DNA of 64,000 nt from Branchiostoma floridae (lineage: Eukaryota > Chordata > Leptocardii > Amphioxiformes > Branchiostomatidae), in assembly GCF_000003815.2 (NCBI RefSeq), contig NC_049983.1:26711278-26775277 (forward strand), given 5' to 3'. A program made the position numbers and the translations under genes. The notes below the pieces were generated by a model. It worked only from the letters and a program-made list of their open reading frames with translations. It ran no database searches and had not been told where the DNA came from. Below, piece by piece: positions 16,676 to 48,635 of the stretch. Position 1 is the first letter of the stretch; each line of letters begins with the position of its first letter.

Positions 16676-16857
16676 CTCTGACAGTGTGTTGTAGATAGGG
16701 CGGCGTGACACACCAGCTTCGCAGGCAAGCCTTGTGCACCAATGAACCAACTGCGCCGCCTGGCGGTTTTACCGTCCGTTACCGATTGTTCATGAAATCC
16801 GTAGTCAGCAACGTTACTATGGCTACGAACGACCAATAATCTATGTCTTGTGTTCCA

Positions 16858-17529
16858 CGTGTGGCTGTGCCTAGACTAACACTTACCTACCATCCTTCCA
16901 GGTGTGGCTGTCTCTAGACTAACCCGTACCTACCACCCTTACAGGTGTGGCTGTCTCTAGACTAACCCTTACCTACCGCCCTTACAGGTGTGGCTGTCTC
17001 TAGACTAACCCGTACCTACCGCCCTTACAGGTGTGGCTGTCTCTAGACTAACCCTTACCTGCCGCCCTTCCAGGTGTGGCTGTCTCTAGACTAACCCGTA
17101 CCTACCGCCCTTCCAGGTGTGGCTGTCTCTAGACTAACCCTTACCTACCGCCCTTACAGGTGTGGCTGTCTCTAGACTAACCCTTACCTACCACCCTTAC
17201 AGGTGTGGCTGTCTCTAGACTAACCCTTACCTACCGCCCTTACAGGTGTGGCTGTCTCTAGACTAACCCTCACCTACCACCCTTGCAGGTGTGGCTGTCT
17301 CTAGACTACGTGGCGAGCACGGCCTCCATCTTTAACCCTTACCTACCGCCCTTACAGGTGTGCCTGTCTCTAGACTAACCCTTACCTACCACCCTTCCAG
17401 GTGTGGCTGTCTCTAGACTAACCCGTTCCTACCGCCCTTACAGGTGTGGCTGTCTCTAGACTAACCCGTTCCTACCACCCTTCCAGGTGTGTCTGTCTCT
17501 AGACTAACCCGTTCCTACCACCCTTACAG
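16858..17529 (+). repeat. 43-bp minisatellite made of copies of the receptor exon's 3' splice site
   Basis: Fifteen units precede the real junction. Unit starts are about 16858, 16901, 16944, 16987, 17030, 17073, 17116, 17159, 17202, 17245, 17288, 17357, 17400, 17443 and 17486, and the true exon begins at 17530. Each unit holds a branch-point-like GACTAAC, a pyrimidine-rich stretch, CAG and the first 20 exon bases (GTGTGGCTGTCTCTAGACTA). The period is exactly 43 except at 17288, where the unit is 69 bases and carries 26 more exon bases. In the receptor frame each ordinary unit reads V-W-L-S-L-D and then TAA. Confidence 0.95.
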
Positions 17530-17802
17530 GTGTGGCTGTCTCTAGACTACGTGGCGAGCACGGCGTCCATCTTTAACCTGTTCGTGCTGAACCTTGACCG
17601 CTACTGGAGCGTGACGGACCCGCTGAAGTACCTGCGGAAGCGCACCAAGCGGCGCGCATCGGTACTGATCTCCATCGTGTGGTTCGCGTCTGCGCTCTGG
17701 ATCGTGCCCATCGTGGGCTGGCACCTCTTCGCCTCGGGCGGCGTCAGGACCGTTCCCAGCAACCAGTGCGACACAGAGTTCCACAGCGATTGGCTCTTCA
17801 AG
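17530..17802 (+). CDS. HRH1-like: H1-like receptor exon: TM3, loop 2, TM4, extracellular loop 2
   Basis: 91 codons in phase 0, from CTTACAG|GTGTGG to TTCAAG|GTAGTG. It covers Asp6, DRY at 23-25, the basic second intracellular loop, Trp57 and GW63-64 of TM4, Cys80, and the FK before TM5. Both exon edges are tandemly copied in the adjoining introns (16858-17529 and 17793-18060). Confidence 0.9.
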
Positions 17803-20800
17803 GTAGTGTCATCACATATCGACCGTCATAGACATGTAAAAGCATGTCTGCTCTTAAATGATGTCTTCTCTTAGATTCTGTTATCGTTTTGCTTCTATAA
17901 TAGTAGAATCTGAAAAATTTTAGCTCTTCAAGGTAGTGACTTCACATAGAAAGACATCGACATAGAAATACCATGCATACATTTTCTCATACGTTGTCTT
18001 TCTAGATTCTGTTATCGTTTTGCTTCTATAATCGTGGTAGAATCTAAAAAAATGTAAGCTACCAACAGAAACGTGGCTAACAAACACCTACATTAGTGCA
18101 GGTCAATCGCAGACTGTTGTTCTTGCATGTTACAGTTGATGCATTCTCTGTTACCAAGTTGTTTTCACCCACGTGACTGTGATGTCAGCACAGTCCGCCA
18201 TGTTGGATGATTTTACCTGGAAGTTGCTAGATGAATTTTCTGTACCCGTCCAGGTGGTGACGTCACTGCCAAACTTCTACATTCCCATGGTGCTGATGGT
18301 GTTCCTGTACGCACGGATCTATGACGAGGTTAGCAAGCGGCACAAAAACCTGACCGCGCACGTGGCCAGACCAAGCGGGACCGAAGAGGATATCAGGTAA
18401 CGTTTACTTAGCGGCCCCAAGCGGTCAGAGTAGAACTGCAGGGGTTTGTTGGTTGGTAAGTGTGTGTTTTTGACGAGGTCAGCAAGCGGCACAAGAACCT
18501 GACCAAGCACGTGGCCCGGCCTAGCGGCACCGAGGACGAAATCGGGTAACGTTTGCTTACCGCCCCCTCGCAGCTAGGGTAAAACTGCAGTGGTTTGTGT
18601 GTTGTTATGCGTGTGTCTATGACGAGCTCAGCAAGTGGCACAAAAACTTGACCGAGCACGTGGCCCGACCTAGCGGCACCAAGGACGAGATCAGGTAATG
18701 TTTACCTACCGCCCCTAGCAGGCAGGGTAGAACTGCAGGGGTTTGTTTGTTGCTACGCATGTGTCCATTATGAGTAATTTGACTTCAAGAATTCTTAAGT
18801 GTATTTGAGGCGTGTGTAGACTACCTGTAGTTTTTCTCCGCCTTCAAATGTCAATGATGCCCTAAACACAGTGGATAACAACCCATGCACTACCCCTACG
18901 GCCCCAAGAATGCGATGCAACTATCTTAACCTTTTTCTTACTTTGACCCAGGATGAACTCCACCGGCGTGCGTCGCTCCTCCTCCTCCTCCTCTCCTCTG
19001 CATCGCATCAAGATCGTCTTCAACGGGCCAACGGGCCTGGCCGAGTCCCCCGACCTCCTGCCGAAGTTTCCCGACGACAGGGAGAGGCTTCCGAAGTTTT
19101 CCGACGACATGTCGAAGTTTGCCGACGACGGGGAGGTACTGCCGACGTTTCCCGACGATAGGGAGAGATACAGCCGGCGATCTTCGAACCTGCTGACGGT
19201 GGACTGGACACCTTCCGACCCGTCCTTCCCTCCCACCGGATCCCGCAGGTTTGGTTTATTACCTCCGTGAAATGTCATGGAGGTTATGATCTACCCTGCG
19301 TTTGTGTGTGTGTCTGTCTGTGTGTCTGTCAACAAGATAACTCAAGAACGGCTAAGTGGATTGATTTCATACTTGGTGTGTTGGTAGGGTGTGATAAAAG
19401 CTAAAATTTTTTAGATTTTGGGCCCCCTAGCGGCTTTCCTTGATGCTACAGCGCAACTTCTAGTTTTGGTATCTTGTGTTCTGAACAAGCCATGGTCACG
19501 ATTTTGGGTGTTAGATAGCTCCTGTTTCGATCTCCATCAGCGATACATCACTACTCCTCCTGGAGTCCAGATTTAAATAATACAAAATATAACAACAGAA
19601 ATTTACAACAAAAGTATGACTTTGAATTAACAGAAAGCAAACATAGGATAAACTCGAAATCAGTAATAGACATACATCAAGGTAACGTAATATAAATCAA
19701 TTGTGTTCCGATTTATATGACCATATATCTATTGGAGTCAACAAAAAACTTGATAACATTAACTCAAAGTGGGATAGGTCGAATGTTAAGCAAAATGAAA
19801 CGTAATAGTAAATCAAAATACAATTTGTTCTGAAGTAATGAAACAGAGTGGTATTTGATAACAATTAAAGCAAAAATAGCAAAAAAGTACATGATAATAA
19901 TCATCTGATACAATCGAAATCTGTATATATTGCACACCACAGCAGAAGTCTTCCCTCTCCGTCTCGGGAGGAGCTCTACATCTTACGTCACAGCTGGCCG
20001 GAGTCTAAGATTGGGAACTCCTTGAGAAGAGACTCCGTCAGCAGCGGCGACTTTGAGGCGGACGCGGGGACCGACCAGCGCCGGAAGAGCCGGCGGGCCT
20101 CCAGCTGCACCCCCAGCGGGAAGAGTCTCGCCATCCTCCGCAAACTCAAGTTCCACTCACGGTGAGCTGCGATGCTGGGTTTTAGGGCTTTGTGCAATCT
20201 GAGATGATGTAAATTTCCCATTGATTTGTTTACTTCCGCTGCATATAACATAACTCTACATCAGAATGCTAAATTACCATGAAGGACGCTTTCAGTAAAG
20301 ACAATCTATTCTGCAACTTTTTAGATTTAGACAACTTTTCGATCCTACATCATATCTAAAAAATGTCATTTTACGTTCTTTCCTTCCGTCGTTCTTTCCT
20401 TCCTTCCTTCTTTCCCGCCTTCCTCCTTGCTTCCTTCCTTTTTCCCTTCTGTCCTCCCTTTCACATTTTTTTCCTCCTTCCGCCCTTTCTTTTTCCCCTT
20501 CTTCCATCTTTCCATCCTTTTGCAGGATCCACTCGGACCGAAAAGCCGCCAAGCAGCTTGGGATGCTGATCGGCTGTTTCCTGGTCTGCTGGCTGCCCTA
20601 CTCCATACTCTTCATGGTGGGTGAAAAGCAGCATATGTCTAATCGTCCAAAGTAGGATAAACTAATGTCAGACTGTATTGTCTTGTCATTCGTGTGTTGC
20701 CAAACCCTTTTGTATAACTAAACTCACACAACAACTACAGAACGACTTCTTGATATCTGTATCTATATAGCCTTCGGCACAAACACCAGTTTAACAGGCG

Positions 20801-32700: not shown

Positions 32701-35700
32701 GGGACATTGTCTGTTACATTCTGCAACAGAGATTGTAACTGGACATTTGGATTAATGTAGTTACAGGGAAAAGCTGAGAGTTCTTGGACAGTAGAAGGTG
32801 CACTTGAGAAGTCTGGTTCATTGGCGTCTGTGATCATTGGATTGAATTCACTTGACTTTTTTACCCAGTTTTCAAAGGTAGCTATGTTCACATGTGAATA
32901 TAGATGATTATGCGTTACCAGCCATGTAAGAGCTTCATGCATTTTGGAAAATCGTACAATGTGTTGTGGGTCTGTTCTTTGTGTTTTACTTTCATTTGTC
33001 TGACAAGGGTGTACTATTACTAGCCCAGCTGTATCTGGCTATNNNNNNNNNNNNNNNNNNNNNNNNNNNNNNNNNNNNNNNNNNNNNNNNNNNNNNNNNN
33101 NNNNNNNNNNNNNNNNNNNNNNNNNNNNNNNNNNNNNNNNNNGTCTCATTTGCTCGTTTTGCTCTTTCCTGTGCAAGTCTATCTGCTTTTTGCTCAGTTG
33201 TCTCATCTGCCTGTTTTGCTTTGTATGAAGCTCTTCGTTTTGCAAGTCTTTCATCTTTTTGCTCACGGGTCTCATTTGCTTGTTTTGCTTTGTATGATGT
33301 TCTTCGTTTTGCAAGTCTTTCATCTTTTTCCTCAGGGGTCTCATTTGCTCGTTTTGCTTTATATGATGCTCTTTGCTGTGCTGCTTTTTGCTCACAGGTC
33401 TCATTTGCTTTCTTTGCTTTGTATGATGTTCTTTGTTCTGCAAGACTCTCTGTCTTCTGTTGATAGGTTTGTTTTTCTTGTTTGTCCTTGCATATTGCGC
33501 TTTGGATTGCAAGACCTTGCACTTTTTTATCATTTAAATTTGATGCTGCATTTGGTGACATTACTAATTGATTCAAGAGGCCTTCATTCCTGTTCTCTGG
33601 CATAGCACTTGGATGTTTGCTTGTGGTGCATGGCACAATGTTTTTCCCAGTACTTTGGTTACAATGTGGTGCAAATGGAAATGCTGTGTTTGGTTGTTGT
33701 AGGTTCTCTTTCGTAGATACAAACTCTGGTTTAACCAAGGTGTATGTGTGTTGTTGTTGAACTTGAAAGCAGTTTTCTGACTCAATCATAGAAGAAACAT
33801 TGCTAGTCAGATTGATAATGTGTATACCAGTAGGTTCAACTGATAAGAAAACATTTTCTGCTTGTACTGGGACAACCTCAAAATTGCATGTTGTGTTCCA
33901 GTTAAGTTGTTGCAAGAATGAAACTAGATTGCTGTTTGAACTGTGCATGCTTAAAGTAGAAGTGCCATGGCTATCTGGCAATGCTGTTATGGGACTTCTG
34001 GCATGTGAGTCATAAACAAAATACTTGTTATCAGCGTGCAACAATGCTACTGTTGAACCAGTTATTCCATGTGCTGTTATGAAAAGACAAGTGTTGGATT
34101 CAGCAAATGCTGCTTCTAGGGCTTTCTTTAAGGTGTAATAAGGATAGACTGCTTCTGTGGCAAATATGTCTCCAGTGTAAGACTCTTTTATTGATACACG
34201 TACAGTATTGTTGTAAAGTTGCAAATAGTCTGGAATATCATCAACGGAGAGGAACTCCACACCAGATCTTAGTGATGGTTTTATGTAGGTGTATAGTGCA
34301 TCTCCTTGAAAAAGTACACCATCAAGGTCTGTACTTGTCCAGGTAATTGCTTGTCTGCAAGTACTGTGGTTAACAACTGCCATTAAAGCATTTGCAGTGC
34401 ATTGTTTGCCTCTATTATCTCCACTGAAAATGATGTCACCTTGGTGGTATTTTCCCGATAAAATAGATTCACACATTGTTCACAATATATGTGTTCTTTG
34501 CTTGACTTTATTTGCACAATGCACAGTGCTCAGTGGCACGATTGAGTCTGGTGTGTGCAAAATGCACAGTGCTCAATGGCACGATTGGTCTGGTGTGTGC
34601 AAAATGCACAGTGCTCAATGGCACGATTGGTCTGGTGTGTGCAAAATGCACAGTGCTCAATGGCACGATAGGTCTGGTGTGTGCAAAATGCACAGTGCTC
34701 AATGGCACGATAGGTCTGGTGTGTGCAAAATGCACAGTGCTCAGTGGCACAATTGGTCTGGTGTGTGCAAAATGCAGTGCTCAGTGGCACGATTGAGTCT
34801 GGTATGTGCAAAATGCACAGTGATCAATGATCTGTTAATAGGTCTCAAGGTCTAATTTGGTTGGATCAAGGACTCTCTTTCAAACCTCTTTGGTTGGATG
34901 CAAAATGTAATGCGTAGATTTCAGCAGAAGAAGTATAAATGTGTACTGTGTAAAATCTTATTGAGTACAGACTTTTGCTAGCTGTAAGTTTCTGTATATT
35001 ACTGTGTCACTTGTATATATAGCAGAGAACAGTCTAAGGCGTCACTGAAACAGAAAGAAAATATTGTCTTGATCACATAACATCTTACTAGTACCAACAA
35101 AAAGCAAAAATCTACAAAAGTTCAGGTGTGACATCTTGCCAACTGCTTTGCTGATTGTTTAACAGTTAGCTACAATCCGTTGTTTTCTACTATTCTTTGG
35201 AAATGTATGTTTTAATGTATTAGAATCCGATCCATCTTTTCAACTTGTACGATATTTTTACAATCAAAAATGCCCTGCATAATGCCTCGCATCGGCTCAA
35301 GCACAGTGCACCATTAAACTATCTAAATTCTCGTCAATCCCCACACACTGGTTTTACTAAAAAAACTATATACCGTTCCTTGGAAATATGTTTCAATGTG
35401 TCCGAATTCATGATCACTATCTTTTCAAATTGTACGTTACTCTTACGATCGAAAATGTCCTGCAGGACCTCCTGCAGCTGCATATATAGACGCACGCCCC
35501 CCTCCCACCCGCACGTAAACTGTTCCAATCGTTGCACAATAAACTTGACTGTATACCCTCCACAAAATCTTTCGTCAAATGTCGTGCTCATTTTACTCAC
35601 ATGACACTACGCCTTAGAATGTAATGTTATATTTTAATACATCCGAATTCCAGAAAGATAACTTTACAAACTGTACCAATTTCTGTACGATAAAAATCTC

Positions 35701-38700
35701 ACCTCCTCCGCACCGTCAACGCCCGTGAGGGTATTTACCGGAATAACCCGAAATGACCCGGAATAACCCGGAATAACCGTAATATTTCTTGTTCCCATGG
35801 CCATATATACATTATTTTATGCCAAAATATTGCATTCTGCGATCTTAACTTATCAAAGCACACTGTATTTCGGTAGCTTTCATCCTTTATTAAGGTTATT
35901 CCGGGTTATTCCGGGTTATTCCGGGTTATTCCGCTAAATACCCGGACCCGTCAACGCTATCGCAAAATGAACCGTGCGATTTAACGACAACTCCTCAAAT
36001 GTTACATGACCAGTGTTTTACTGCAAATCAAGAAACATTTTCCTTTCCTAGACTTTGCTAATGAGCGCTGCAATGTTTTCTGTACGAGTAGAGGTCATGG
36101 ATAAACAGTATTCTTACAACGTTTATTTGAAGGGCTAAGAAGGGCTGAGAATTGTCGTAAAAACGCACGGTACATTGCGTTTATTTGAAGGGCTGAGAAG
36201 GGCTGAGAATTGTCGTAAAAACGCACGGTACATTTTGCGACCATAGCAGACCCATCCAAGGACGAACCATTAAACCGGGGACAAAGCCGGGCGCCTGCGG
36301 CGCCCCGGCAAAAAATACTGAATTGTTCTTCACGGAAGAAACGGTAGCTAGTAAGGCGTGAGGAAGCCATAACACCCACCCACCCCAGATAGTTCTGACA
36401 GAGAGCTGCCGAACTCCGCCCAGCTACCCACGGTCGGACGGGCAATCGCGTAATTGAACGCAGAAAAGCCACTTAGAATGTTGGTTGCCTCCATAATTTA
36501 ATTTTCCTGTCCGCCCGGCTTGCGTATGGATCGGGGCACTCTGCGATATTAGCCTTCAGTGGTGTGGACAGATGGTGTTGTGTAACGTCCGCTCTGCCAG
36601 GATCAAGAGTAATGCACTATTAAAACTTTCGGGTTAGGCGGGGAAAAACACGTCGTTAATGAAGCATCGGAGGACAGGATGTATTAAGGTGGTGGAGCAG
36701 ACAAGGTCAGAAGGAAACGGTCTCTCGGACATGTTATTTTTTAAACCATCAAAGTTTTCTACGAATTTTAAGCCATGTTGATTTGATTATTAGGATGGCA
36801 TCCTCTGGGGACCAGAAACTGATGAGAGTGTGCGAATAAAAAAGTTTGACCCAAAAAGTTGCCTTTATTATGAAACCAAGACAAGTAGTCACGAAGGTTG
36901 AACACACGGAGTATAGTTTACCGAACAATAGATTCTTCATTTCTGTTCTTTCACATCTTCTGTGACCTTGGAGTATTCTATGACACTATATATATATTGC
37001 TATCAATTTTTCGATGTTTGTTTTTGCAATCCTTGGCCTACATTTCCTTATTTTGAAGCTGCTTTGTACGATGTACAGTATGGTTGAAAACCTGATTGGA
37101 AACAGCCGAAAATTGATGTCATCCATATAATCAAATCAACAAGGCCTTCCTTTTCCCAGGGGATTTCAGATCTATCAAGAATATTACTGGCTGTTTGTCC
37201 TGGGGTTTGAGAGGATCATCATCTTCTTGTTGTCACTCGAGGGTCCAACAGCTCTTGGAACAACGGGAAAGACTGTAGTGTCATAAGGGGCTAGAAAAGA
37301 GTTTACGCATGAAATACCTTGCAATTTCATCTGGTTTAACGCAGCAGTCCCGTTCCAACGTGAAAGTTGGCGTCACAGTCAGACATTGAGAGCCACTGAT
37401 ACCGTGTGGCCTTGTAAACAAGCTCCAAACAGCGTAACAGAACCTTACCCGGGGCTGCAGCCTTGATCCGGCGTGCCGACTCGTTATTCTATCCCAGATC
37501 TCCATAGCAATAGATATACACATCACGCCATGGATGGAAGTAATGGTGTACTTCAGTGCAAACAGAAGAGTTACAAAGTTAGATAACAGTCAGTCTCATT
37601 GGCTGGTTACAGTGGCAGCGACACATGGGGACATGGAGGAAGACCCCCCCCCCCCCCCAATCAAACTGAAACGTGAAACTTCACTTGGAAATTTCATGAA
37701 ACCTAGCGAAATTTACCAATGAAATGCAGGAAATGGCTTTTAAAGGGTCCAGATTTCCAAATTTCTTCGGACCTCTCTGTCGTTATACAGCCATTGCCGT
37801 ATGTGTACCATATCCCATAGATGAACAGATTTCTGCCTGATGCCGTCACTGGTAAGGACAGCTATGTGAAGGTAACACAAACAGCATTCTGTAAATACAA
37901 TAGCCAATTTCTTTGCAACACGCGTGAGAATACAAGGTAAATACAAGTACGAATACAATTCCCCAATGTCAAACTCTCTTGATAGATACCAATCGCTTCA
38001 AGGACGACTAAGCACCATCCCTGCCAGTCTTAAGGGACTAAGTTAATATCATATCCTCAGTTCTTGTATCTTTTAATCTAAGAGAGGCCAACGATGCACC
38101 TCGCTGCTGGATTAGGAGATGGAGCGATAAGATGGAATTATAATATCTTTTATTATATATTTTCATTTCGATTTTTGATTTGCTTATTTTTTTTAATTAT
38201 CTGTTGTTTTGTTTTGTTTTATTATATTCAGTAACCGTGTGCTTCTATTTGTTTTCGGTAGCGGCACTAATTTAAGTTGCGACTTGAGTGTGTCGCCACC
38301 CTGTCTTTTAGCTATATGCTGCAATAAAAAAATACAAGCCGTACAAAAAAAGTTGATTCAGAAACACTACATCTGCACAGAGAGATATCGTAGCGAAACT
38401 TTCCGCCAGCTTTGGTGCACGTGAGCTCTCTAACTCCCTTTGGCGACTGTCTGTCGGCTATTACGAGAGAAACTACTGTGCCCGGCTCTTCCGTGCCAGC
38501 CCTGACTGAACTTGGCGGCGCTAATATAACATAATAATTACGACTTGAGTGTGGCCACCATGCCTTGTAGATATATGTTGCAATGAAAAAAAAAATACTA
38601 GGCTTACAAAAAAGTTGAAACGCTACATCTGCACAGGGATAGCAAGGCGAAACTTCCTGGCCGATTCGGTGTACGTGATATGAGTAGCCTAACTCCCTTA

Positions 38701-41700
38701 GGCGACTGTCTGCCGGTTATTACCAAAGAAGCTACTGTGCCCGGTTCTTCCGTGCCAGCCCTGACTGAACTTGGCGGCGCTAATATAACATAATAATTAC
38801 GACTTGAGTGTGGCCACCATGCCTTGTAGATATATGTTGCAATGAAAAAAAAAATACTAGGCTTACAAAAAAGTTGAAACGCTACATCTGCACAGGGATA
38901 GCAAGGCGAAACTTCCTGGCCGATTCGGTGTACGTGATATGAGTAGCCTAACTCCCTTAGGCGACTGTCTGCCGGTTATTACCAAAGAAGCTACTGTGCC
39001 CGGTTCTTCCGTGCCAGCCCTGACTGAACTTGGCGGCGCTAATATAACATAATAATTACGACTTGAGTGTGGCCACCATGTCTTGTAGATATATGTTGCA
39101 ATAAAAAATACTAGGCTTACAAAAAAGTTGAAACGTTACATCTGCACAGGGATAGCAAGGCGAAACTTCCTGCCATTGCCGGTGCACGTGAGCGGTCCAA
39201 CTAACTCCCATAGGCGACTGTCTGTCGGCTATTGCCATGGAAACTACTGTGCCCGGCTCTTCCGTGCCAGCCCTGACTAAACTTGGCGGCGCTAATATAA
39301 CGTAATAATTACGACTTGAGTGTGTCGCCACCATGTCATGTAGATATATGTTGCAATAAAAAAAATACAAGGCGTACAAAAAAAGTTGAAACGCTCCATC
39401 TGCACAGGGATAGCGAGGCGAAACTTCCCGCCAGCTTTGGTGCACGTGAGCGGTTCAACTAACTCCCTTAGGCGACTGTCTGCCGGCTATTACCAGAGAA
39501 ACTACTGTGCCCGGCTCTTCCTTGCCAGTCCTGACTGAACTTGGCGGCGCTAATATAACATAATAATTACGACTTGAGTGTGTCATGCCTTGTAGATATA
39601 TGTTGCAACAACAAAAATACAAGGCGTACAAAAAAGTTGGAACGCTACATCTGCAGAGAGATACCGAAGCGAAACTTCCCGCAAGCATTAGTGCACGTGA
39701 GCGGTCCAACTAACTCCCTTAGGCGACTGTACATGTCTGCCGGCTATTACCAAAGAAGCTACTGTGCCCGTTCCTTCCGTGCCAGCCCTGACTGAACCTG
39801 ACAGGGACAAGGTAATGATCATGTTTCCCGCCAACTTCACAAGAAAGCTCATCCTTCTTCTGACCTTGTGGGGAGATCTAAGGCTTGGCAACAGTTCAGG
39901 AACGAGCAAGGAATGATTACACTCCAAACTGGGGAAGCCAGACGCCTTAGGGGCTGCGTGTGGAACAATTGCTGGGCAAACTGGCAAGTCAATGTGGTTT
40001 ATTGTAAGGAATTGGTATCCGCTATACACGAGTCAGGGGTAGGAGGAACCCCTTGCATCCTTGGTCGGACGTCCTCATAGGAGACGGAAACTCTAAATAA
40101 CAAAGCTGCATCTACTTGTGCCGTCTTACACGTTGCATGCAATTCTTATCCCTGTGGACGAGAGGGTGGAGAAGGACGTGCACATCCCTCCTTCACCTTA
40201 AAAAGTCACGTGCAGGCCAGGCAGACGGCAAGGAACTGTCTGCCTACCATTGTCTTCAGAGACAGACGGATGCCAGCAACAACAATTAGGACAAGGAAAA
40301 AATTCGAAGTTGAGATGCTTTAGGGATGCAGTGAGGCATTATTGCATGGAGAATGAAGGAGCCAGACAGCGTCTTGGATCTGCTGTAAGGAACTGTAACC
40401 AGGCATGACGGAGTCTACATGTCTGGAGAGTGTCTGTATGGACAGAATTGATCCAGGTGATAGGAAGCTTTCACCAACCGGACAGCTTGATACTTCTGAC
40501 ACTGTAACTTCTGAAACTATGATCATTTAAATCCATCTCTATAACTACTTCAGGGTTACGTAGAAAGGTAGGTCAGTAAGGGGAGGAATGATTGTTGGCC
40601 CTATGCTTCCAACATACTTCAGCGTGGCCGTTAGAGATTATGTTGCTTATACTCCAGCATGCCTGTAACGGCTACTGTTACCTGTTTACTACTACATAAC
40701 AGCTGGATATCGCGTTACACATGGCCGATACTGTAGTCGACTTCGGAAATCGGCTGACCTGTGACCCAACATGGCCGACCGGTGTAAGATAACCTCATCT
40801 CAAACAGACGGTGATCGTAAAGCATTATGGGTCACCTGAGGACAGACGAAAACACGCGCAGTTCAACCGAGCAGAAATTGGAGCCAGGAAACATCGCATC
40901 TGGGTGATAAACTATTCTTATGGAAACAATTTAGATGTTATCGCCTGACGTAACATCCTGAAAGCCTCAGGGCATCATCATGAATACTTCATACGTTATT
41001 GCTGTTATTGTGGAGGAATGTGAAGAGCACTTCGGCGGGAGATTATAGTTCCTATGCCACCGTACATGACGTATGGCGGTATCGTATGTCATGAACATCC
41101 TTTGAACTTATTGTCCAGACTTTGATCTCACCGCCCCGAATGGTTTCACGTAATAACTAGTCAGCTCTGAGCTACGTTGTTGTGCAAGGGAAATGTGTCG
41201 TAAGGGCTGTAAAAAAAAGATTTAAGAATTTTTCAAAGCACTATCTTAAATGAGTGGCATAAAGCAAATTATTCTGAAAAAATGCTTCTTTTATCACATA
41301 AAATTTAAACACCTGATGGCTGGACTGCCGAAACCAGATTCTCCAAACCCTCCCCTTTTGAGAGATTTTGGTACCGTCCACATACCAATACCGCCCTACC
41401 CGCACCCTCCGTGATGTTATTCCCAGCATGAATAATGCAACGTCACATTAGCAGAAAAATCGTCATGGGCATAAGTTTTTACGAGCACCTTTTACTTTAC
41501 TGTGAAACGTTAGAACGAAGCGGACATATCATACGGCATTTATGTGATAGAGGACCCTATCTGCGCGCAGTGAAAGCCTTGATCCCAAACGTTATGGCAT
41601 AACGACTCTTGTGTCTGCCCGAGTAAAGTATGAGATCAGTCGGCCCGTAAACCCACAGGAGCGTCGCCGCTTCTGTACACATGTTGTTTTAACACGCGGT

Positions 41701-48200: not shown

Positions 48201-48332
48201 CCGACTGAAACAGATGTTCCCCACGCCGTGCTACACTACAGACTGAAATAGAGATGAGTGGAGCAATGTTCTCCTCACAGCCACAGTCACAGCGCGTGCC
48301 CTCTACACACACGATTAATCCGCGGCTGTTTA

Positions 48333-48635
48333 CCCACAGTGGGGACGAACCACACGCTTACCCACACCGGGGACGAACCACACGCTTACCCACACTAGGG
48401 ATGAACCGCACGCTTACTCACAGTGGGGACGAACCACGTGCTTACCCACACTGGGGATGAACCACACCGTTATCCACATTGGGGCTGAACTACACGCTTG
48501 CCCACACTGGGGATGAGCCACACGCTTACCCGAAGTGGGGACTAACCACACCGTTACTCACACTGGAGATGAACCACACGGTAACCTACACTGGGGATGT
48601 ACCACACGCTTACCCACACTGGAGATGAACCCTTC
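48333..48635. repeat. 28-bp minisatellite, about 11 units
   Basis: GGGGACGAACCACACGCTTA followed by CCCACA(C/G)(T/C) repeats with substitutions (GATGAACC, CCGTTA variants). Confidence 0.95.

Follow-up and report, generated by a model that had tools for sequence, protein, structure and literature searches.

Both ends of the 22.3-kb intron that precedes the TM3-TM4 exon of an amphioxus histamine-H1-receptor-like gene are arrays of splice sites. Judged from its sequence and set beside the published descriptions of mirages, the receptor array is a large and unusually complete lancelet mirage, present at both ends of one intron. With near-identical tandem splice sites at both of its ends, the intron lets the spliceosome's choice between equivalent sites be studied in a natural setting: if the first site to appear were taken, the 5'-most decoy should be used, and under exon definition the exon-proximal copy should be. 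The features discussed below are given in coordinates of the window, by which we mean the whole 64,000-nucleotide stretch of DNA that was analysed.

16829..16858, +: left flank of the array, ending ...TTCCAC, recognised by local alignment to the end of the paralogue's intron
16859..17529, +: acceptor array of 14 decoys and the live acceptor, with the first 20 exon bases, a CTAAC junction, a pyrimidine tract and CAG
17289..17357, +: unit 11 (69 bp), a putative fossil exon edge whose 26 extra bases match the exon
17502..17508, +: GACTAAC, the branch point of the live acceptor as predicted from sequence
17527..17529, +: CAG of the live acceptor; the reading frame joins ALCQ/VWLSLDY, and the paralogue shares this intron position
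17530..17802, +: exon with TM3-TM4 of a histamine-H1-receptor-like protein (frame, Pfam and structure matches)
17803..18253, +: 451-bp intron absent from the paralogue, whose start AGGTAGTGTCATCAC resembles the start of the next exon, AGGTGGTGACGTCAC
17920..17948, +: second copy of the exon-3 donor boundary (90% over 29 nt; 25/30)
18254..18396, +: exon with TM5 and the start of the third intracellular loop (frames and comparison with receptor loci)
18322..18768, +: a 149-bp sequence in three copies across the donor boundary of the TM5 exon, ATCAG/GTAACG (Tandem Repeats Finder, alignment)

The acceptor array consists of 15 head-to-tail units over 671 bp and ends directly before the exon at 17530. 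Unit length is 43 bp in 14 of 15 cases and 69 bp in unit 11, and each unit combines 23 intron bases with 20 exon bases, abutting the live exon. We found CAG at the end of all 15 units, followed each time by GT, and every 43-bp unit holds CTAAC, a pyrimidine tract, CAG and the exon edge, as the initial annotation had proposed in calling the units complete acceptor modules. That annotation counted 15 copies in front of the real site; there are indeed 15 complete units, but the CAG of the last one serves as the live acceptor, which leaves 14 decoys. The first copy of the exon edge (16859) is preceded by CAC, not CAG. Tandem Repeats Finder reported 43-bp arrays with 94% and 93% matches, and chance is excluded as the source of a 671-bp array at such identity. 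When the entire 513-Mb genome was searched with an 86-base piece of the array, at least seven matches were obtained, and all those listed lay inside the array.

In the 43-bp unit, CTAAC is formed where exon GACTA meets intron ACC. Thus, the best branch-point candidate of the live acceptor (17502-17508) would itself be partly former exon; its candidate branch A sits 22 nt before the last G of CAG, a distance found in 15/15 units. When the left flank was compared to the end of the paralogue's intron, 31 of 10315 intron windows scored equal or higher, which is suggestive only of a remnant of the ancestral acceptor in which AG has changed to AC. The idea that the 23 intron bases stem from exon 3 was rejected (score 15, compared to a shuffle mean of 14.96).

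The exon adjoining the array, which encodes VWLSLDYVASTASIFNLFVLNLDRYW..., does carry TM3 (with TM4), as initially annotated. The 223-aa protein piece from the joined exons belongs to the rhodopsin-family receptors by its Pfam match (7tm_1, E 2.6e-47), and among solved structures the histamine H1 receptor is nearest (best E 7e-57), with the first five of the best 60 of 826 matches being H1, followed by muscarinic M3; by these matches the gene is histamine-H1-receptor-like. A motif scan of the window for the upstream exon gave no recognisable TM1-TM2-like frame; this exon, which we represented by its last 252 bases, is located ~4.7 kb before the window begins; its coding sequence closes with ...FGLALCQ at -4728, next to the donor CAG/GTACGT at -4727. 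The intron between it and the TM3-TM4 exon measures 22,257 bp and is in phase 0. A paralogue on the same contig has 68 of 91 identical residues in the TM3-TM4 exon and an intron at the identical position, and its differences by codon position (20, 14 and 38) indicate a coding pattern in this exon.

At the donor end of the same intron, from -4727 to -4033 (C5:26706550-26707244), outside the window and so out of view of the initial annotation, we found 29 sites of the form AG/GTRNG[TC], 22 of them exactly AG/GTACGT and many lying in 11-bp units like TTAG/GTACGTG. (The region holds 37 GTRNG[TC] sites in all, and the 8 without a preceding AG were left out of the pair count below.) In a nested arrangement with these sites, the final 75 bases of the exon are present four times, as the live copy and three extra ones. 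Compared to the live tail, the extra tails have 4 and 0, 3 and 4, and 6 and 1 synonymous and other changes, respectively; since the changes in two of the three are mostly synonymous, these two look like captured coding alleles. A genome search with 89 bases of the donor array gave at least five matches, with all those listed inside the array. We then paired each donor with each acceptor (29 x 15 = 435), and just one pair joins both exons in frame without a stop, the other 434 being unproductive. Joining the upstream exon (phase 0) to a decoy leads to an in-frame stop after six codons at 13 of 14 decoys. Thus, the in-frame TAA predicted by the initial annotation after six codons is general except at the decoy at the unit 11 edge, where 29 codons are read before the stop.

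The decoys could not be told from the live site by any feature that we measured. The tracts contain 12-14 pyrimidines of 17 across units, compared to 13 in the live unit, and two decoys match the live boundary at 30/30 bases. CAG is predicted to be paired in every unit, including the live one (unpaired probability 0.01-0.03), and the predicted openness of the branch site is 0.05-0.22 everywhere except in unit 11 (0.77). On the measures used, then, decoys are indistinguishable from the live site by sequence, branch distance, pyrimidine count and predicted folding. A rule of position or distance, which had been put forward as one explanation from the start, fits because these features do not separate live from decoy, which leaves position as the distinguishing feature. 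The exon that each acceptor would define measures 273 nt from the exon-proximal acceptor and 316 to 901 nt from the decoys, as calculated from coordinates.

Two ideas on RNA structure were considered and rejected. Local structure, as predicted, does not hide the decoys, since folding separates live from decoy at no unit; the array as a whole (60 shuffles in each comparison) is predicted to be more stable (-179.4) than mononucleotide shuffles (-159.2, sd 6.6), but not beyond what is seen with tandem arrays of shuffled units (-146.6, sd 30.1; 645 nt). Base-pairing between donor and acceptor arrays (TAGGTACG / CGTACCTA, an 8-nt match) fares no better in duplex energy than with shuffled arrays, of which fractions of 0.375 and 0.34 did as well; among shuffled units, 14% likewise yield a match of 8 nt. 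We also note that CTTACCT occurs at 8 places in array units and resembles what we take to be the 5' end of U1 snRNA.

Unit 11 bears on how the array has grown. Without its 26 extra bases it is exactly the 43-bp consensus unit; a single synonymous base separates it from the live exon; and it has TTTAAC where 43-bp units have GACTAAC. The simplest reading is that unit 11 would be a former live exon edge, joined at TAACC to another array copy by unequal exchange. Homogenisation between array and exon, raised as a possibility in the initial annotation, is thus strongly suggested by the exon bases that this unit carries. Among the 11 variable columns of the units, two pairs (25/34 and 27/34) contain every one of the four combinations, a further sign of exchange. 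Unit 1, at the left edge, has 5-8 differences to every other unit, compared to 0-6 for the remaining pairs, and unit 15, at the right edge, is not divergent, a pattern of concerted evolution with the left cluster edge excluded. Similarity between adjacent units exceeds that between other units only marginally (permutation P = 0.059). Units to the left and right of unit 11 differ if unit 1 is omitted (4/1001 subsets as extreme), a difference that vanishes with unit 1 kept (123/1365). Counted by bases, the exon part is less variable than the intron part (4/300 compared to 26/345, P = 1.2e-4, with units that are not independent); counted by columns, there is no significant difference (3/20 compared to 8/23, P = 0.18).

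Mirages are known in lancelets as tandem repeats of globin genes at 5' and 3' intron/exon boundaries, many with AG/GT signals, which show length instability and concerted evolution among units with the cluster edge excluded, and which leave regular splicing undisturbed as judged by RT-PCR (PMC3087553). The initial annotation did not name this phenomenon. Normal splicing despite lancelet boundary repeats is likewise stated in PMC3902484, and the original report (Canestro 2002 NAR) is known to us through citation. With the mirages of BflGb6, BflGb9 and Adh3, the receptor array shares a boundary-spanning minisatellite, AG/GT signals and concerted evolution (PMC3087553). It differs in that BflGb6 and BflGb9 are described in the available part of that source at one intron end each, whereas the receptor intron is arrayed at both, and in its size, having 15 acceptor units of mostly 43 bp where the two BflGb6 haplotypes have 6 and 3, each of 150-160 bp (PMC3087553). 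Short units as such are not new, since those of the Adh3 mirage measure 10-72 bp (PMC3087553). A branch-point-like sequence made from exon, as in the receptor array, is not mentioned for globin mirages in the available part of PMC3087553. PGBD5 also has tandem repeats over splice sites (60 and 108 bp, overlapping 5' and 3' sites), as does troponin C, which is cited together with Adh as a further lancelet case (PMC3902484); unlike the receptor array, the PGBD5 repeats are not described as a self-contained acceptor module in the available text of PMC3902484.

Similar arrays occur elsewhere in the genome. Three AGGTRAGT sites in steps of 2-32 nt were found 350 times, compared to 120 for the reversed pattern (occurrences, not independent arrays), with single sites numbering 38,147 compared to 39,566 reversed. 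Read by eye, 17 of the 19 forward donor arrays among those listed on C1 to C3:33.8 Mb were not simple microsatellites, compared to 0 of the 9 control arrays listed on C1-C3; on C4-C14, ~7 of the listed control arrays are likewise not simple microsatellites. The acceptor excess is modest genome-wide (TTTGCAG triples, 133 compared to 109; CTAAC-CAGGT-CTAAC, 802 compared to 544). A further pattern, GACTAAC-12 bases-CAG (590 compared to 1138 reversed), was discarded as badly chosen, the spacing in the array being 18 bases.

We examined six tandem-array loci (L058-L063), picked for their splice-like units and not at random, and by eye an exon adjoins four of them (L058, L060, L062, L063); next to the arrays of L059 and L061 no coding exon was recognisable by eye. 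L058 (C5:21,158,677-21,159,357) has 20 TTTGCAG/GT edges, spaced 34 bp apart in 18 of 19 steps and 68 in one, the last of which opens an exon (region C5:21158677-21159459; 478-1260 of L058), so that 19 decoys precede a live acceptor. The best match of this exon is putative adenosylhomocysteinase 2 (E 1e-11). Its start contains TACTAAT, and thus the units of L058 too carry a branch-point-like sequence supplied by the exon; assuming phase 0, a stop would follow after eight codons at all 19 decoys. At L063, L062 and L060, donor arrays (35 bp x 10.1, 29 bp x 13.9 and 51 bp x 13.7) adjoin exons that match CHD1 (E 5.3e-20), the Na/Ca exchanger family (above the cut-off) and HSD3 (below the cut-off), respectively.

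We think it likely that the receptor array is a mirage grown by duplication and exchange, that exon definition favours the donor and acceptor nearest to the exons, and that the array is nearly neutral. A minisatellite made of the 3' intron end and the first 20 exon bases would have grown by tandem duplication and unequal exchange, the latter taking in more of the live exon edge at least once (unit 11). Duplication would have joined exon GACTA to intron ACC..., making the branch-point-like CTAAC of the 43-bp units, and through this newly created CTAAC the array may have replaced the old intron end as acceptor. At each intron end the spliceosome would use the exon-proximal copy, and so recognise the shortest exon (273 nt), because a 22-kb intron is presumably removed by exon definition; this choice would leave the decoys mostly silent and the array close to neutral, its sequence being kept by exchange rather than by selection for decoys. 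One observation counts against neutrality: all 11 variable columns lie outside the ten of CTAAC, CAG and GT (P = 0.034), and this invariance, together with the finding that 0 of 14 decoy AGs are dead, could reflect weak constraint. The intact AGs (14/14) would also suit a regulatory role, in which some transcripts use decoys, hit the TAA after six codons and decay, such that array length tunes the amount of receptor. Also in its favour are the early stop at 13 of 14 decoys, the 434 unproductive pairs of 435, and the equality of decoys and live site on the measures used. We nevertheless consider this role unlikely, since chance alone expects stops in intron-derived sequence, the paralogue has no array, and other mirages reportedly do not disturb splicing (PMC3087553, PMC3902484). 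Moreover, comparable arrays lie at boundaries of unrelated genes (adenosylhomocysteinase-like, CHD1-like and Na/Ca-exchanger-like), and thus nothing about them is specific to the receptor. A regulatory decoy function, which the initial annotation had offered as an alternative in which the array tunes receptor output, is not supported.

Recursive splicing sites, or zero-length exons, have an acceptor directly before GT. The receptor array has this arrangement, differing from recursive sites in that its acceptors are in tandem, 43 bp apart, and candidates for such use only. If decoy junctions were spliced again as donors to later acceptors until the live one was reached, errors in the choice of acceptor would correct themselves. 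As the units contain CAG/GT and the upstream exon ends in CAG (CTCTGTCAG), use of a decoy would rebuild CAG/GTGTGG, a potential donor. The units start with GTGTG (GTGTGG in 13 of 15), and CAGGTGTGG matches 7 of 9 positions of what we take to be the donor consensus, compared to 8 for the live donor and 6 for that of the next intron. However, GTGTGG is without the A at +4, and one 43-nt unit is probably shorter than the minimum intron size, so that each step would have to span at least two units; we regard such re-splicing as distinctly improbable. Lower still do we rate an assembly artefact, in which the copy number was inflated or the units mis-joined. There are precedents, since one lancelet globin mirage was apparently misassembled in a genome draft (PMC3087553) and PGBD5 repeats number 2-7 copies depending on the assembly (PMC3902484), but other sequence data bear out the PGBD5 repeats (PMC3902484), and in the receptor gene the units hold private variants (11 variable columns) and one odd length, and a second array bounds the same intron. 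We put forward a wider proposal tentatively and with more doubt than confidence: that self-contained acceptor minisatellites, with short units that are each a full 3' splice module and an exon-supplied branch point, form a class and took over the acceptors of at least two unrelated genes (H1-receptor-like and adenosylhomocysteinase-like), and that in the H1-receptor-like gene, where the donor array leaves one productive pair in 435, correct splicing is almost wholly positional, perhaps with CAG/GT re-splicing.

Duplication of exon boundaries is not confined to the arrayed intron. Copies matching at least 23/30 bases were found at 4 of 6 tested boundaries in the receptor gene (best matches at the other two, 19 and 15) and at 0 of 4 in the paralogue (best match 18), in a test that had the TM5 exon donor centred one base off and left out the TM1-TM2 exon start, the TM6 donor and the TM7 acceptor. 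We compared 15 receptor loci (L017-L031) at the position of the 451-bp intron (17803-18253); in 12 others (L018, L019, L021-L030) the frames run through uninterrupted, while L020 stops short of this position and no frame was obtained from L031. Of the 473 AG/GT sites in 124 kb, the one most like the start of the next exon, itself aside, is a distant site (10/13); the two donor copies of this intron rank next, with 9/13 and 8/13, and a further distant site equals the lower of these two scores. That introns can be gained when an AG/GT sequence is duplicated in tandem has been proposed (Rogers 1989, cited in PMC3087553), and a case is described for potato RdRp (PMC4974935). Such a duplication would explain the 451-bp intron, which probably was born in this way, a fit that falls short of proof; in contrast, the 15-unit array sits in an intron whose position the paralogue shares. 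The receptor gene seems to show the mirage process becoming a new intron.

Several minor observations can be added. The 149-bp copies at 18322-18768, in the third intracellular loop, retain recognisable coding sequence. L020 (reverse complement 1350-1550), from an aminergic-type receptor gene, has a two-copy acceptor with ~60 exon bases at its TM3 exon; the copies are alike at 55 of 75 bases and lie 126 bp apart. Further minisatellites in the window lie at 34513-34829 (42 bp x 7.5), 38280-39797 (259 bp x 5.9) and 48330-48631 (28 bp x 10.8). Inside the long intron, around 7512 on the minus strand, there is a reading frame with a YADD motif, which we take to mark it as reverse-transcriptase-like.
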